Below are positions 33,782 through 39,966 of a stretch of 64,000 bases of DNA, one piece after another; position 1 is the first letter of the stretch; every line of letters starts with the position of its first letter. The DNA is from an uncultured Barnesiella sp. (GTDB lineage Bacteria; Bacteroidota; Bacteroidia; Bacteroidales; Barnesiellaceae). A program made the translations under genes and the position numbers. The notes under the pieces are model-generated. The model saw only the letters and a program-made list of their open reading frames with translations, did no database searches and had not been told where the DNA came from. The stretch spans positions 1 to 64,000 of the forward strand of contig CALUFO010000008.1 of the NCBI GenBank assembly GCA_944320015.1, given 5' to 3'.

Positions 33782-34828
33782 TTAATTGTTTTCGGGACGC
33801 AGTTTTCGAACGGTTACACCTGCCTGCCACATTTCGCTCTCGCGCATCTCTTTCAGCTCTTGATTCAAACCGTCGCGATATCCCTCCTTGCTGTTTGTAT
33901 CGATTGAGCGTTGGGCTTCGTTGCCTTTGGCTACCTCGTCATACAACTCCTCAAAAACTGGTTTGGTGGCGTCGCGGAATCGTTTCCACCAATCGAGGGC
34001 ACCCCGTTGAGCGGTGGTCGAACAGTTGGCATACATCCAATCCATGCCATTCTCGGCTACCAGCGGCATGAGCGATTGGGTGAGTTCCTCGATAGTCTCG
34101 TTGAAGGCTTCCGAAGGACTGTGGCCGTGGGCCCTTAATGTGTCGTATTGGGCGGCGAAGATGCCTTGAATGGCACCCATGAGAGTGCCTCGTTCGCCGG
34201 TCAGGTCGGAATATACCTCGCGTTTGAAAGTCGTCTCGAAGAGGTATCCCGAACCTACTCCGATGCCCAATGCCAAAACTTTTTCTGTGGCGTGCCCGGT
34301 CGCATCTTGGAAGACAGCATAGCTCGAATTGAGCCCGCGTCCTTGCAGGAACATGCGGCGCAAACTGGTTCCCGAGCCTTTGGGCGCAACCAGAACGACA
34401 TCGATGTCGGCGGGAGGAACGATTCCTGTGCGGTCTTTGTAGGTGATGGCGAACCCGTGTGAGAAATAGAGAGTCTTGCCGGCGGTGAGGTGTTTCTTCA
34501 CTTTGGGCCATACCTCTATTTGAGCGGCATCGGAGAGCAGGTATTCGATAATCGTGCCTCGCTGGCAGGCTTCTTCGATTTCGAAAAGCGTTTCGCCGGG
34601 TACCCAGCCGTCGGCTACGGCCTTGTCCCAAGTTTTGGAATTTTTACGTTGCCCCACGATTACGTTGAATCCGTTGTCCCGCAGGTTCATGCTCTGTCCG
34701 GGTCCTTGTACGCCATATCCGATCACTGCGATTGTTTCGTTTTTGAGGATTTCTCTCGCTTTTTCCAACGGAAATTCTTCTCGGGTGACTACATTTTCGT
34801 CAACCCCGCCAAAATTCATGATAGCCAT
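33782..34828 (-). CDS. ilvC: Ketol-acid reductoisomerase
   Basis: 348 residues; converts 2-acetolactate or 2-aceto-2-hydroxybutyrate to the dihydroxy acid using NADPH and magnesium. The dinucleotide-binding motif is AVIGYGVQGPGQSMNLRDNG (about 34-53), followed by the phosphate-contacting region VGQRKNSKTW. The knotted C-terminal domain has EVYSDLTGERGTLMG with metal-binding acids, and EALTQ-like EELTQSLMPLVAENG. It is the last gene of the ilv operon and lies 33 nt after the thioesterase gene. Normal length for the Bacteroidota form. Confidence 0.97.
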   Translation of the reverse strand: MAIMNFGGVDENVVTREEFPLEKAREILKNETIAVIGYGVQGPGQSMNLRDNGFNVIVGQRKNSKTWDKAVADGWVPGETLFEIEEACQRGTIIEYLLSDAAQIEVWPKVKKHLTAGKTLYFSHGFAITYKDRTGIVPPADIDVVLVAPKGSGTSLRRMFLQGRGLNSSYAVFQDATGHATEKVLALGIGVGSGYLFETTFKREVYSDLTGERGTLMGAIQGIFAAQYDTLRAHGHSPSEAFNETIEELTQSLMPLVAENGMDWMYANCSTTAQRGALDWWKRFRDATKPVFEELYDEVAKGNEAQRSIDTNSKEGYRDGLNQELKEMRESEMWQAGVTVRKLRPENN

Positions 34829-34861: not shown

Positions 34862-35626
34862 TTATCTGTTTTCAAAAATAATTCGTCCTTTACAGTAGAT
34901 TTTCTCGTCGTCGCGTATTTCCAAGGCAAAATTGTCGATCGATACCTCTTCTTTGCACAGCCGCAGCGTGGCGTCGTGACGAGCTTCGTTGGCATAGCCG
35001 ATTTCAAATCGGTGTATGCGTTGCCGGTCGTATCGTTCGAACGGGAAAAGGTCGAGTGCGTGTTCGATATATTTCACGCTGTTGACATGGCGGTTCAAAT
35101 CAATATCGTTGTAGGCGACGTGGTAAATTACCGGATTCTCGTCGTGGACGTCGCGTACCCTCGATTGTTTTTCGATGGGGCAGGGCTTGTCCAATATGTT
35201 GCGGGAGATATGTTTAAACTGGCCTATGTCGACCGACAAACGGGTGTTCAAGTCGATTACCGACCAAATTGTGCGGGCATACCCGCAGGGTTTCCCTCCT
35301 TCGTCCGATATGGCGAAGTTGCGTGCCGAGAAATGCTTGTTGTAACCCTCTATCCATGTTTCCAAGGTGTAGTGCTCGTTGATGCGCGGATAGCGGCTCA
35401 TCTCGATGGCCAGCCGGGAGAGAACCCACACTTGCCGGTTCTTGATGAGTGTGCTGTATCCTACGCCCCACGATTCGGCGTGGAGCGTCGCTACTTCGAG
35501 TATTCTTTTGGCGAGCAGCGGCAGCGGTAGTTCTTGCTGTCCATTGCCTTCGGCGGGCTCTACCACATAGCTTTTGGCATAAAGTGCCACGGTCGGTTGT
35601 TCCGACCGATTTTCGATTTCTTTCAT
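34862..35626 (-). CDS. Acyl-ACP thioesterase
   Basis: 254 residues in two tandem hot-dog domains, as in plant-type FatA/FatB and their bacterial relatives. The first domain runs about 10-145 (HAESWGVGYSTLIKNRQVWVLSRLAIEMSRYP region). The second domain contains NDIDLNRHVNSVKYIEHALDLFP with the conserved N-x-H-x-N catalytic segment (NRHVNSVKY). It releases free fatty acids from acyl-ACP. It is set between ilvN and ilvC, overlapping the ilvN stop by 4 nt. A link with branched-chain acyl primers derived from the same pathway is plausible but inferred. Confidence 0.93.
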   Translation of the reverse strand: MKEIENRSEQPTVALYAKSYVVEPAEGNGQQELPLPLLAKRILEVATLHAESWGVGYSTLIKNRQVWVLSRLAIEMSRYPRINEHYTLETWIEGYNKHFSARNFAISDEGGKPCGYARTIWSVIDLNTRLSVDIGQFKHISRNILDKPCPIEKQSRVRDVHDENPVIYHVAYNDIDLNRHVNSVKYIEHALDLFPFERYDRQRIHRFEIGYANEARHDATLRLCKEEVSIDNFALEIRDDEKIYCKGRIIFENR

Positions 35627-36168
35627 AGTTTGGCTTGTCGGTATTGTTGTTCTTTTAAGAATATGCTTACATGTTCCACTGTCGATTTCGTGATGGCGAC
35701 GCGCCCCGAGCGTACGAATTGCATCACGTCGTATCGGCTCAACTCCTCGAATAGGGCTTGTGTCTCGTCGGTGTGCCCCGATTTTTCGATGACCGTATAG
35801 GTGCGGTTTACTTCCAGTATGCGGGCGTTGTGTTTTCTCACCAGATCTTCGATGTGCTTGTCGTCCAGTAGTTTGTCGGTAGGCACTTTGTAGAGGGCGA
35901 CTTCTTGGAATACGATTTCGTCGTCGGTATAGAAGAAAGCTCGCAATATATCGATGCGTTTCTCAATCTGTTTGACCAGTTTTTCTATTGTCTCTCGATC
36001 GCTGTATGTCGTGATGGTAAACTTATGTACCCCTTCGATAGCCGAGGCCGACACCGACAGGCTCTCGATATTGAGTTGTCGGCGGGTGAAGATAATCGAG
36101 ATTTGGTTGAGCAACCCCACTTGGTTCTCGGAGTAAACGGTTACGGTATATAATGTTTTGTCTGTCAT
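35623..36168 (-). CDS. ilvN: Acetolactate synthase, regulatory small subunit
   Basis: 181 residues. The N-terminal ACT domain (about 4-80) begins LYTVTVYSENQVGLLNQISIIFTRRQLNIESLSV, the valine-binding region responsible for feedback inhibition. The C-terminal ALS-small domain follows (about 85-175). It pairs with the IlvB catalytic subunit, whose gene ends 7 nt upstream. Length matches the family. Confidence 0.96.
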   Translation of the reverse strand: MTDKTLYTVTVYSENQVGLLNQISIIFTRRQLNIESLSVSASAIEGVHKFTITTYSDRETIEKLVKQIEKRIDILRAFFYTDDEIVFQEVALYKVPTDKLLDDKHIEDLVRKHNARILEVNRTYTVIEKSGHTDETQALFEELSRYDVMQFVRSGRVAITKSTVEHVSIFLKEQQYRQAKL

Positions 36169-36175
36169 AGCGATA

Positions 36176-37885
36176 TTAATATTTTTCGGTGGCGTTGAGC
36201 ATGATGTTCGTTACGCAGGCTCCGGCGGGAGTCATGGGGAATACCATGCAATCGGGGTCTATTTGGACATCGAGCAGATAGGCGCCCCGGTGGCCGAGCA
36301 TTCGCCCGATGGCGGCGTCGAGTTCTTCACGGGTGGCGACTCGTTCGCCTGCGATGCCATAGGCGGCGGCTATGCCGGTGAAATCGGGGTTGAGCATGGG
36401 TGTCTCGGAATAGCGTTTGTTGAAGAAGAGTGCCTGCCATTGTTTTACCATACCCAAGAAGTTGTTGTTGAGAATGATAATCTTCACATCGACTCCATAT
36501 TGCATAATGGTTCCCAACTCTTGCAGGGTCATTTGTATTCCCCCGTCGCCGGTGAAGAAGCACACGGTACGGTCGGGGCGGCCTATTTTGGCTCCAATAG
36601 CGGCGGGGAGTCCAAACCCCATTGTGCCCAAACCTCCCGAAGTGACAATGCTGCGAGAGCGTTTGAACCGATAGTATCTTGCCGAGAACATTTGGTTCTG
36701 TCCCACATCGGTTACTAAGATACTGTCGTTGTCGGTGGCTTCCGAGATTTTGCGAACGACTTCGCCCATGTTCATGAGTTCTTTTTGGGGGTGCAGTTCC
36801 GGGTTGATTACTTTTTCGATTTCTACTTGTTCACATTCGGCAAAGGAATCGAGCCACTCTTGGTGGCTGGCCGGAGCGATTTCACGGTTCAGGGCCTGCA
36901 ATACGGCACGGGCGTCGCCCAATACCGAGACGTCGCATTTTACGTTTTTGTTAAATTCCGACTGGTCTATGTCGATATGAATTATTTTCGCTTGTCGGGC
37001 ATATTGGTTTAAGTCGCCGGTCACCCGGTCGTCGAACCGCATGCCGATGGCGATGAGCAGGTCGCACTCGTTGGTCTTGACATTGGTGGCGATACTCCCG
37101 TGCATTCCCAGCATACCTTTGTAAAGCGGGTGGTCCGAGGGCATGGCCGATAATCCCAGCAACGTGCAGCCTACCGGTATGTCGGCCGTCTCGGCCAATT
37201 GAGCCAGTTCTTTTTCGGCATTGGCGATAACAACGCCTTGCCCGGCGAGAATAAGGGGCTTTCGGGCTGCGTTGATGAGGCTTGCGGCAGCCTCTATTTC
37301 CGAGGGGTTAATCTCGGGATAGGGGTTGTAGCTGCGTATGAATTGGCATGGCTTGTATTCAAAGTCGGTCAATCCCGTTTGTGCGTCTTTGGCAATATCG
37401 AGAACCACGGGTCCGGGGCGCCCGTTCCCGGCGATGTAGAAAGCGCGAGCCACGGCCCATGCGATTTCGTCGCTGTGCCTTATCTGGTAGCTCCATTTTG
37501 TCACCGGTTGTGTGATACCCACCACATCGGTTTCTTGAAAGGCGTCGGATCCCAATAGCGGCGAAGCTACTTGTCCCGTGATGACGATGAGCGGCGTGCT
37601 ATCCATCATGGCGTCGGAGAGGCCGGTGATGATATTGGTCGCTGCCGGCCCCGATGTAACCATGACAACTCCGGTTTTCCCCGATACCCGTGCATATCCC
37701 TGAGCTGCGTGGGTTGCCCCTTGTTCGTGGCGGACGAGAATGTGCCTCAATTGTTCCCGGTAGTCATAAAGCACATCGAATACCGGCATAATGGCGCCGC
37801 CGGGGTATCCGAAGATGTATTCTGTCTTTTCTGCAATGAGCGATCTGATGAGCGCTTCTGCTCCTTTTATTCTTTCTGTTGCCAT
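36176..37885 (-). CDS. ilvB: Acetolactate synthase, catalytic large subunit
   Basis: A ThDP- and FAD-dependent enzyme of 569 residues that condenses two pyruvates, or pyruvate and 2-oxobutyrate. The activating Glu is in LVRHEQGATHAAQGYAR (about 51-67). The FAD domain is in the middle. The ThDP motif is GDGGIQMTLQELGT through LNNN (about 438-468). It lies 17 nt after ilvD, in the standard order of this operon. Confidence 0.97.
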   Translation of the reverse strand: MATERIKGAEALIRSLIAEKTEYIFGYPGGAIMPVFDVLYDYREQLRHILVRHEQGATHAAQGYARVSGKTGVVMVTSGPAATNIITGLSDAMMDSTPLIVITGQVASPLLGSDAFQETDVVGITQPVTKWSYQIRHSDEIAWAVARAFYIAGNGRPGPVVLDIAKDAQTGLTDFEYKPCQFIRSYNPYPEINPSEIEAAASLINAARKPLILAGQGVVIANAEKELAQLAETADIPVGCTLLGLSAMPSDHPLYKGMLGMHGSIATNVKTNECDLLIAIGMRFDDRVTGDLNQYARQAKIIHIDIDQSEFNKNVKCDVSVLGDARAVLQALNREIAPASHQEWLDSFAECEQVEIEKVINPELHPQKELMNMGEVVRKISEATDNDSILVTDVGQNQMFSARYYRFKRSRSIVTSGGLGTMGFGLPAAIGAKIGRPDRTVCFFTGDGGIQMTLQELGTIMQYGVDVKIIILNNNFLGMVKQWQALFFNKRYSETPMLNPDFTGIAAAYGIAGERVATREELDAAIGRMLGHRGAYLLDVQIDPDCMVFPMTPAGACVTNIMLNATEKY

Positions 37886-37902: not shown

Positions 37903-39756
37903 TTAGATGATGCGAACCGCTCCTTTATCGGCCGAGCTTACCATCGCCGCATAGGCTTGCAACGCTTTCGATACCTCTCTTTTCCTTTGTCGGGGAGTGA
38001 AGGCTTGCTTCCCGCGGCTATTCTCTTCGGCTCGACGGCGATTCATCTCTGTTTCTTCGATGAGCAGGTTGATGCTTCGGTTTGGAATGTCGATTTCGAT
38101 TATATCGCCGTCATGTACCAGTCCTATATTCCCGCCGGCTGCCGCCTCGGGTGAGATATGCCCGATCGAGAGTCCCGATGTCCCTCCCGAAAAACGTCCG
38201 TCGGTGATGAGGGCGCAGGCTTTGCCCAAGTGTCTCGATTTGATATAAGAGGTGGGGTAGAGCATCTCTTGCATGCCGGGGCCTCCTTTGGGTCCTTCGT
38301 AGGTGATGACGACTACATCGCCGCTTTCCACTTTCCCGCCCAGTATTCCTTCGCAGGCTTCTTCCTGCGACTCGAATACTTTGGCCCGTCCTTTGAACCG
38401 GAATATTTTTTCGTCGACACCGGCGGTTTTGACGATACACCCGTCTTGGGCGATATTCCCGAAAAGCACGGCCAATCCGCCGTCTTTTACATATGCGTGG
38501 TCGAAATCACGGATACATCCTTCGCTGCGGTCGGTGTCGAGCGTACTGTAATAGTTTTCCTGTGAAGCCATCACGAGGTTGAAATGATTGCCCGGAGCGC
38601 TTTTCCACAGCGTTTCGGCAGGTTCGGGGCATACACCGTTTTGCAGGGCGTATTGTTCGATAGCCTCCGATAGGCTTTTCCGGTCTACACGCGAGACCGA
38701 AGTGTCGATCAAGCCTTCTTTTCCCAGTATCGCCAAGATAGAAAGGATACCGCCCGCCCGGTTTACATCTTGTATGTGGTAGTGCGAGTTGGGCGCAACT
38801 TTACAAAGAACGGGCGATTGGCGAGAGAGCATGTCTATGTCTTTTATCGTGAAGTCTACGCCGGCCTCTTGTGCTATGGCGAGCAGGTGCAATACCGTGT
38901 TGGTCGAGCCTCCCATGGCGATGTCGAGAGTCATGGCGTTGAGGAAGGCCTCCCGGGTGGCGATGCTTCGGGGCAACACGCTTTCGTCTCCGTCCCGGTA
39001 GTAGGCGTAACAGTTCTCTACGATTTGGCGGGCTGCATCGATAAAAAGCCGTTCCCGGTTGCGGTGGGTGGCTACAATCGTTCCGTTCCCGGGGAGCGCC
39101 AAACCGATAGCTTCGTTGAGGCAGTTCATCGAGTTGGCGGTGAACATTCCCGAGCAAGAACCACAGGTGGGGCATGCTGCGAATTCGACCTGCCGCACCC
39201 GTTCGTTGTCGATACTTTCGTCGGCCGATTCGACCATGGCATCGATGAGGTCGAGTCCCTGGCCATTCAGGTTCCCGGCTTCCATAGGGCCTCCCGATAC
39301 GAATATGGTGGGAATATTCAGCCGCATGGCGGCCATGAGCATGCCCGGGGTGATTTTGTCGCAATTGCTGATGCACACCATAGCGTCGGCTTTGTGGGCG
39401 TTGACCATATATTCCACGCTGTCGGCGATGAGGTCGCGCGACGGTAATGAGTAGAGCATGCCATCGTGCCCCATGGCTATGCCGTCGTCGATGGCGATAG
39501 TGTTGAACTCTGCGGCGAAGCAGCCCAATTTTTCTATCTCTCTCTTGACGGTTTGTCCTATTTCGTGCAGGTGTACATGCCCCGGGACGAATTGGGTAAA
39601 TGAATTGACCACGGCGATGATAGGTTTCCCCATCGCTTCGGGTTTCATGCCATTGGCTCGCCATAAAGCTCTGGCGCCTGCCATTCTCCTCCCGGCTGTA
39701 CTGGTTTCGCTTCGTAACTGATGTCTCATAATTCGTTTTTGTTCGATTGCTGTCAA
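37903..39756 (-). CDS. ilvD: Dihydroxy-acid dehydratase
   Basis: 617 residues; an iron-sulfur enzyme producing 2-oxo acids in valine and isoleucine synthesis. Cluster ligands and nearby motifs are [12 protein letters not shown] (about 127-138) and [19 protein letters not shown] (about 195-213). The C-terminal barrel has [20 protein letters not shown]. It is the first structural gene of the ilv operon and lies just behind an attenuator terminator at 39753-39790 and a leader peptide at 39845-39913. Confidence 0.97.
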
Positions 39757-39790
39757 AAGAAAAACCTTTCCGTGGTGTGGAAAGGTTTTT
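39751..39790 (-). promoter_or_regulatory. Attenuator: terminator hairpin in the ilv leader
   Basis: Read on the minus strand, AAAAACCTTTCC and GGAAAGGTTTTT pair perfectly (12 bp) around ACACCAC, followed by a U-rich CTTTT tract. The hairpin ends before the ilvD start. A competing segment, GGTGGAAAGG (complement at 39835-39844), follows the leader peptide stop codon directly. It can pair with CCTTTCCACACC in the first arm, forming an antiterminator. Confidence 0.88.
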
Positions 39791-39844
39791 ACAATTACTC
39801 TAATTCAATATTCTATGAGAAGTAACTACATACGCCTTTCCACC

Positions 39845-39913
39845 TTATCGACTCACGACAAGAATCATGCTAATGACCGATAGAGAAATCACATGTAGTA
39901 ACATTGTAACCAT
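39845..39913 (-). CDS. ilv operon leader peptide
   Basis: A 22-residue peptide, starting MVTMLLHVISLSV and ending with SR. Twelve of its 22 residues are branched-chain: five Val, four Leu and three Ile. Its start lies about 15 nt after the predicted transcription start. The stop codon is immediately followed by the antiterminator strand. A ribosome that stalls in the Ile/Leu/Val codons leaves that strand free, so antitermination occurs; a ribosome that reaches the stop covers it, and the terminator forms. This is the classical branched-chain amino acid attenuation logic. Confidence 0.85.
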   Translation of the reverse strand: MVTMLLHVISLSVISMILVVSR

Positions 39914-39934
39914 ATAATTGTGTTTGTGATGTTG

Positions 39935-39966
39935 CAAATGTATGACTATTTTGCAATATAAACAAA
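39935..39966 (-). promoter_or_regulatory. Consensus promoter of the ilv operon
   Basis: On the minus strand, TTTG (complement at 39963-39966), a 20-nt spacer and TACATTTG (complement at 39935-39942) match the Bacteroidota consensus. The transcription start is expected near 39928, about 15 nt before the leader peptide ATG. Confidence 0.85.

Follow-up and report, generated by a model that had tools for sequence, protein, structure and literature searches.

The minus strand of the window, by which we mean the whole 64-kb stretch of DNA from an uncultured Barnesiella sp. that was analysed, carries a cluster of ilv genes preceded by a short leader. The first gene after the leader is ilvD, encoding dihydroxy-acid dehydratase (37903..39729, minus strand, with its ATG at 39729; NCBIfam TIGR00110 and NF009103 above cut-off). 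It is followed on the same strand by ilvB for the large subunit of acetolactate synthase (36176..37885; TIGR00118 above cut-off), ilvN/ilvH for the small subunit (35623..36168; TIGR00119 above cut-off), an acyl-ACP thioesterase-like gene (34862..35626; PF01643 and PF20791 above cut-off) and ilvC for ketol-acid reductoisomerase (33782..34828; TIGR00465 above cut-off). The thioesterase-like gene had no match among the NCBIfam families. The divergent neighbour gene matched the TamL family in the profile search. Plasmid matches to ilvD comprised 19 records, none spanning 80% of the gene, and were uninformative.

Upstream of ilvD, the original prediction had placed a consensus promoter, a 22-residue leader peptide with 12 Ile/Leu/Val residues, and a perfect 12-bp terminator preceded by an antiterminator strand that touches the leader stop codon, and each of these parts is present on the minus strand. 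The promoter consists of a -33-type element TTTG (39963..39966) and a -7-type element TACATTTG (39935..39942) separated by 20 nt, in agreement with the TTTG / TAnnTTTG consensus given for Bacteroides (PMC7366714). The leader ORF (39845..39913) starts with ATG at 39913, comprises 22 codons, ends with TAA at 39847-39845 and encodes MVTMLLHVISLSVISMILVVSR, in which 12 of 22 residues are branched-chain (5 Val, 4 Leu and 3 Ile). Directly after the stop codon lies the antiterminator strand GGTGGAAAGG (segment 2, 39835..39844). The intrinsic terminator (segments 3 and 4, 39760..39790) is composed of AAAAACCTTTCC, the 7-nt loop ACACCAC and GGAAAGGTTTTT; its 12 perfect pairs have a predicted energy of -13.7 kcal/mol and are followed by CTTTT, so that stem and U-rich tail together occupy 39790-39755, between the leader ORF and ilvD. 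The distance from the leader stop codon to the ilvD ATG is 115 nt. A general terminator consensus scan over 6 kb did not include this terminator among its 6 matches, with 6.8 expected by chance; we propose that it was passed over because most of the U run belongs to the stem, so that 4 T remain among the next 8 bases where the scan rule asks for 5.

The antiterminator strand had also been claimed to be complementary to the first arm of the terminator, which folding and base matching bear out: GTGGAAAGG pairs with CCTTTCCAC (segment 3, 39777..39785) over 9 contiguous bp, and the first 7 bases of segment 3 are shared with the terminator stem. Since this helix uses bases of the terminator first arm, the two structures are mutually exclusive. 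Folding added two helices that were absent from the original prediction. One is an inner antiterminator helix of 11 bp (5' strand 39820..39830, with one variable column among the nine genus members; 3' strand 39790..39800), which together with the 9-bp helix gives a predicted antiterminator fold of -21.1 kcal/mol. The other is a protector helix between segment 2 and a strand within the leader ORF (segment 1, 39875..39902, ends approximate), predicted at -22.6 kcal/mol and also seen in the full-length fold without a ribosome. With these, the predicted protector, antiterminator and terminator helices complete a 1:2, 2:3, 3:4 architecture.

We modelled the ribosome as a 30-nt mask, stalled at eight Ile/Leu/Val codons or positioned at the stop codon. 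When the RNA ended before segment 4, the antiterminator formed in all eight sense-codon stalls and failed to form with the mask placed at the stop codon. Equilibrium folds of the complete leader kept it in one of the eight stalls (I9) and gave the terminator in the other seven, with base pairs spanning the ribosome. Without a ribosome, RNA cut before segment 4 preferred the antiterminator over the protector, and the complete leader preferred the protector together with the terminator. Because the partial-length and full-length equilibrium folds disagree, the proposed switch would require a particular co-transcriptional order and speed of folding. Textbook attenuation likewise depends on both.

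To gauge how often such an arrangement arises, we defined a strict detector with three requirements: an ORF that starts with ATG, spans 12-40 codons and has no fewer than 8 I/L/V residues making up 45% or more of the peptide; a terminator 15-90 nt past the ORF stop; and, close to that stop, an antiterminator strand. On both strands of the 64-kb window, it matched the ilvD leader only. It also matched 68 of 163 ilvD upstream regions, a set that includes the best 80 of 596 named matches; the thresholds were chosen after inspection of the first loci, the first detectors being too strict for some of them, and this post hoc choice weakens the exact numbers without weakening the contrast with controls. 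Those controls gave 0 strict matches in 3,260 dinucleotide shuffles (20 rounds of the 163 regions) and 0 in the 163 reverse-complemented regions. Under relaxed rules, for which reverse strands rather than shuffles served as the control, the count was 0/160. The ORF criterion alone was satisfied in a mean of 4.65 of 163 shuffled regions, and when it was applied to all 1,140 amino-acid triples, I+L+V ranked top (89/163 loci), ahead of L+S+V (67). When both strands of the best 80 of 596 named loci were scanned in 3,216 overlapping windows, 23 distinct matches were obtained, all upstream of ilvD.

The 163 regions came from 80 named contigs (the best 80 of 596 matching stretches), nine genomes of the genus, our own included, and 74 places from a sample of the order Bacteroidales; with 3 duplicates between sets, they represent 160 distinct ilvD loci. 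The order sample covered 178 genomes, 80 of which had an ilvD match, and the 74 places used were those with at least 64% identity, excluding our own genome, G005, a second gene piece in G101, more distant paralogues and fragments. Conservation among relatives had been set beforehand as one of two tests that could refute the prediction, and it did not do so: leader, terminator and stop-proximal antiterminator were found in 9/9 genus genomes, all under strict rules (strict 9, relaxed-only 0, none 0). Beyond the genus, the element occurs in many, not all, of the sampled order members (36 strict, 21 relaxed-only and 17 none among 74), and its arms coevolve as described below. Among the named contigs (best 80 of 596), the corresponding counts were 23, 14 and 43. 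Relaxed matches at L067 and L189 look spurious. No element was detected even under relaxed rules in 58 of the 160 distinct loci, six of which (L002, L003, L051, L065, L072 and L073) have less than 250 nt upstream and cannot count as absences.

Within the best 80 of 596 named matches, the element was found in 0 of the 17 contigs titled as other phyla, 14 of which have at least 250 nt upstream; these were chosen by record titles, which can be wrong. The 11 loci titled Prevotella, Prevotellaceae or Marseilla in the same set comprised 1 strict match, 2 relaxed matches (L067 being doubtful) and 8 without the element, one of the 8 with a short upstream region, so that 9/11 carry no convincing element. 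Outside the order, we sampled 40 of 100 other matching genomes of the phylum, all at 33-39% identity, with a group at ~50-56% left out, and found a leader with a terminator in 9/40 loci, applying slightly relaxed rules where the strict ones gave no match. A different Ile/Val-rich leader, mutually similar among L251, L255, L256, L259, L260 and L264 (e.g., MLSVIISLVIIQIIGIPYHPGKAL), stands before the more distant ilvD of these genomes outside the order; in L251 and L256 the detector found the ORF alone, with no terminator.

Coevolution of the RNA arms was assessed in 77 loci with a leader and a terminator (the antiterminator was not required), reduced to 64 by dereplication. We used partner permutation, in which the pairing score of a strand with the partner from its own genome is compared with the scores obtained with partners from other genomes, instead of counting base pairs on a genus alignment, because the alignment displaced the terminator arms between genomes and there is little variation within the genus. 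For segments 2 and 3, the mean score with the own partner was 21.5 against 16.2 with permuted partners, and the maximum of 5,000 permutations was 17.8; shuffled strands scored 13.6, and a more distant upstream window scored 11.7. Segment 3 of the same genome ranked first, alone or in a tie, among the partners of segment 2 in just 17/64 loci, since the arms are alike across genomes. The protector pairing of segments 1 and 2 gave 18.8 against 15.4 in the same 64 loci, with a maximum of 16.8 in 3,000 permutations. Within the genus, a compensatory change from U-A to C-G is seen in G002 (L083), where GGCGGAAAGG pairs with CCTTTCCGC.

Further features concern the reading frame and the position of the leader. 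In the 64 loci, the leader frame has an I/L/V fraction of 0.58, compared with 0.26 and 0.08 for the two alternative frames, and in the genus the leader ORF shows a single length difference, an in-frame one of 3 nt, with the extra codon present in three genomes. In the 55/64 loci with a helix score of at least 14, the start of the antiterminator strand and the first base of the stop codon are a median of 1 nt apart (range -12 to +10), and the whole stop codon lies inside the antiterminator strand in 27 of the 68 strict loci. In 55/64 dereplicated loci, the 120 nt before the leader ATG contain TAnnTTTG, as compared with 5.9 loci on average, and never more than 12, in 50 mononucleotide shuffles; the motif precedes the leader ATG in 9/9 genomes of the genus.

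Leaders of the same general build stand before other amino acid genes in the genus. Upstream of hisG (PF01634; L090-L098), leaders with clustered His codons were found in 9/9 genomes and in 1/900 shuffles (e.g., MLFLSLHHHHHLHIPRRGVR; MKALFLHHHPVCFFFTKRW in our own genome), together with a terminator and an antiterminator strand that overlaps or adjoins the stop codon, weakly so in L097 (score 12.5). Before a putative leuA-type gene (PF00682 domain; L108-L115), Leu/Ile leaders were found in 8/8 loci and in 0/800 shuffles, that of our own genome being MTIELLNNLIIDLLSNKYDQK. The leuA-type terminator is formed by AGCCTTTCTC and either GAGAAAGG or TGGGAAAGG, and the antiterminator strand GTGAGA(A) spans the TGA stop codon in 7 loci and follows it in L115. 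In G002, no leuA-type PF00682 gene was found. With His codons before hisG and Leu/Ile codons before the leuA-type gene, codon content tracks the operon. For trp, the region upstream of the single PF00425 gene in each genus genome appears to be another gene, and no leader was recognized there by eye.

Taken together, the anatomy of the element, its conservation and its coevolving arms support the attenuator reading as far as sequence can show, and we consider it very probable that the ilvD-ilvB-ilvN-thioesterase-ilvC cluster is controlled by a classical ribosome-mediated transcription attenuator. From this anatomy, we infer the transcription start, a single transcript for the cluster, translation of the leader, ribosome stalling and amino-acid-dependent readthrough. 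Transcription would begin just downstream of TACATTTG, and a ribosome would enter the 22-codon leader. With Ile-, Leu- and Val-tRNA charged, it would reach the stop codon and cover segment 2 (GGTGGAAAGG), leaving segment 3 free for segment 4, and RNA polymerase would halt before ilvD. Should any of the three tRNAs be uncharged, the ribosome would stall inside the ORF, disturbing the protector 1:2 and exposing segment 2, which together with the inner helix would capture segment 3 ahead of the synthesis of segment 4; the terminator would then not form, and the genes would be transcribed. With no translation at all, 1:2 and 3:4 would form and lead to termination.

Other explanations were weighed against this reading. 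A regulatory protein or a small molecule might bind the leader RNA and select between antiterminator and terminator, the ORF being incidental. Such sensing would fit the conservation of the genus RNA beyond the needs of the peptide, including the stretch after the stop codon, and the leucine leaders of Actinobacteria have been argued not to work by classical attenuation (PMC1262725). Yet the ORF is rich in the three end products of the operon across many lineages despite sequence change, I+L+V leads all amino-acid triples, the region has no Rfam match at gathering score, and the his and leu leaders show codons that track the operon, so that we regard this explanation as very unlikely. The leader might instead be a constitutively expressed gene for a stable sRNA or a small peptide, whose terminator merely insulates ilvD without regulating it, and a promoter motif and an intrinsic terminator flanking a short stretch do have the shape of an sRNA gene. 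Against this, in the scanned loci (best 80 of 596) the element occurs just directly upstream of ilvD, and its mutually exclusive helices coevolve, which makes this explanation still less credible than the preceding one. The least probable of the three, in our judgement improbable in the extreme, is that the leader acts as a translational uORF, controlling ilvD through ribosome reinitiation or mRNA decay rather than termination. Short leader genes near structural genes are common, in Bacteroidetes as well, and have been proposed to aid reinitiation (PMC4833913); the 115 nt between the leader stop codon and the ilvD ATG nevertheless greatly exceed the peak at 11-14 bp reported for Bacteroidetes (PMC4833913), and a terminator with its antiterminator is conserved in that interval.

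The Rfam search of the 64-kb window brought just two tRNAs and a cut 5S rRNA to the gathering score. Known amino acid leader and T-box families were therefore set aside as candidates, none reaching gathering in the region and the permissive matches looking like chance; the best leader-type matches were rnk_leader (22.9 bits, cut-off 50) and Phe_leader (22.0 bits, cut-off 55). Bacteroid-trp RNA (RF01692), a motif listed in PMC2864571 and likewise a predicted cis-regulatory RNA of Bacteroidetes, was rejected as the same family, with 0 matches in our own genome (G000) at E <= 0.001 under strict filters; it matches 4 of 60 order genomes, 3 of them above cut-off.

The closest counterparts of the element are the ilvGMEDA and ivbL leaders of enterobacteria, in which a peptide rich in branched-chain residues and protector, antiterminator and terminator helices precede biosynthetic genes. 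The ilvD leader shares the type of peptide, the set of helices and the biosynthetic genes downstream. It differs in its Bacteroides-type promoter, in a segment 2 that begins at the leader stop codon, in a cluster that has ilvD first and includes a thioesterase-like gene, and in matching no Rfam leader family at cut-off. In Staphylococcus aureus, an attenuator with a leader peptide and a terminator directly upstream of ilvD, as here, has genetic support for Leu-dependent readthrough (PMC5794164); that leader belongs to another phylum, is Leu-rich and is also under CodY, whereas the one described here is balanced in Ile, Leu and Val. By contrast, mutation of the candidate codons in the Streptomyces ilvB leader had no effect (PMC1262725), and anatomy alone is thus no proof of mechanism.

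Closer relatives have yielded related clues. In Flavobacterium psychrophilum, of the same phylum, structured 5' regions of amino acid operons give strong clues for leader peptide attenuation (PMC9723704); the main text of that paper lacks the string "ilv", and we found no test of the mechanism there. In B. thetaiotaomicron, sORFs resembling leader peptides have been mentioned (PMC7366714). The original prediction had hinted at novelty, and this holds in part: among the open-access papers searched, none was found with a functional test in Bacteroidota of a leader-peptide attenuator that senses amino acids, but attenuation had been suggested earlier in the phylum for F. psychrophilum (PMC9723704) and with the Bacteroid-trp motif (PMC2864571).

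Bacteroidota are major members of gut communities, and we came across few accounts of how the phylum monitors its amino acid supply. In 2004, Vitreschak et al. (FEMS Microbiol Lett) reportedly mentioned candidate attenuators for the Bacteroidetes/Chlorobi group. If the reading is right, a switch ahead of the ilv, leu and his genes would show that Bacteroidota, a phylum with unusual promoters (PMC7366714) whose flavobacteria are stated to be without Shine-Dalgarno sequences (PMC9723704), couple translation to transcription tightly enough for attenuation. It would also point to a set of short leader genes worth seeking and supply simple natural sensors that could be used in laboratory strains of Bacteroides. 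The value of the element lies in the breadth of its conservation, its extension to his and leu and its ready testability in a phylum for which no demonstration was found.

A further leader differs in design. Upstream of thrA, the gene for bifunctional aspartokinase/homoserine dehydrogenase (L220-L228), a short ORF ends in Thr-Pro-TAG; its stop codon lies in the loop of a CCCCTTAGGGG hairpin next to a T-rich stretch, and its last codons, some of them Thr, make up the first arm of the hairpin. From this layout, the thrA leader may be a Thr attenuator without an antiterminator. We tentatively put forward a wider proposal, which we consider plausible at somewhat below even chances: that attenuation centred on the stop codon is common and old in Bacteroidota (ilv, leu and his) and that thrA departs from this design, its Thr codons making up the first arm of the terminator and its stop codon sitting in the loop, so that a stalled ribosome would block the terminator without an antiterminator. 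The nine thrA-leader loci searched, L287 included, had no Rfam match at E <= 1, and the exact motif was absent from both strands of all other DNA compared (~709 kb). It is present in 9/9 genus loci and in 4/20 order loci (L272, L278, L284 and L286), with variants in L280 and L287, and the predicted stems of the thrA leader differ between genomes.
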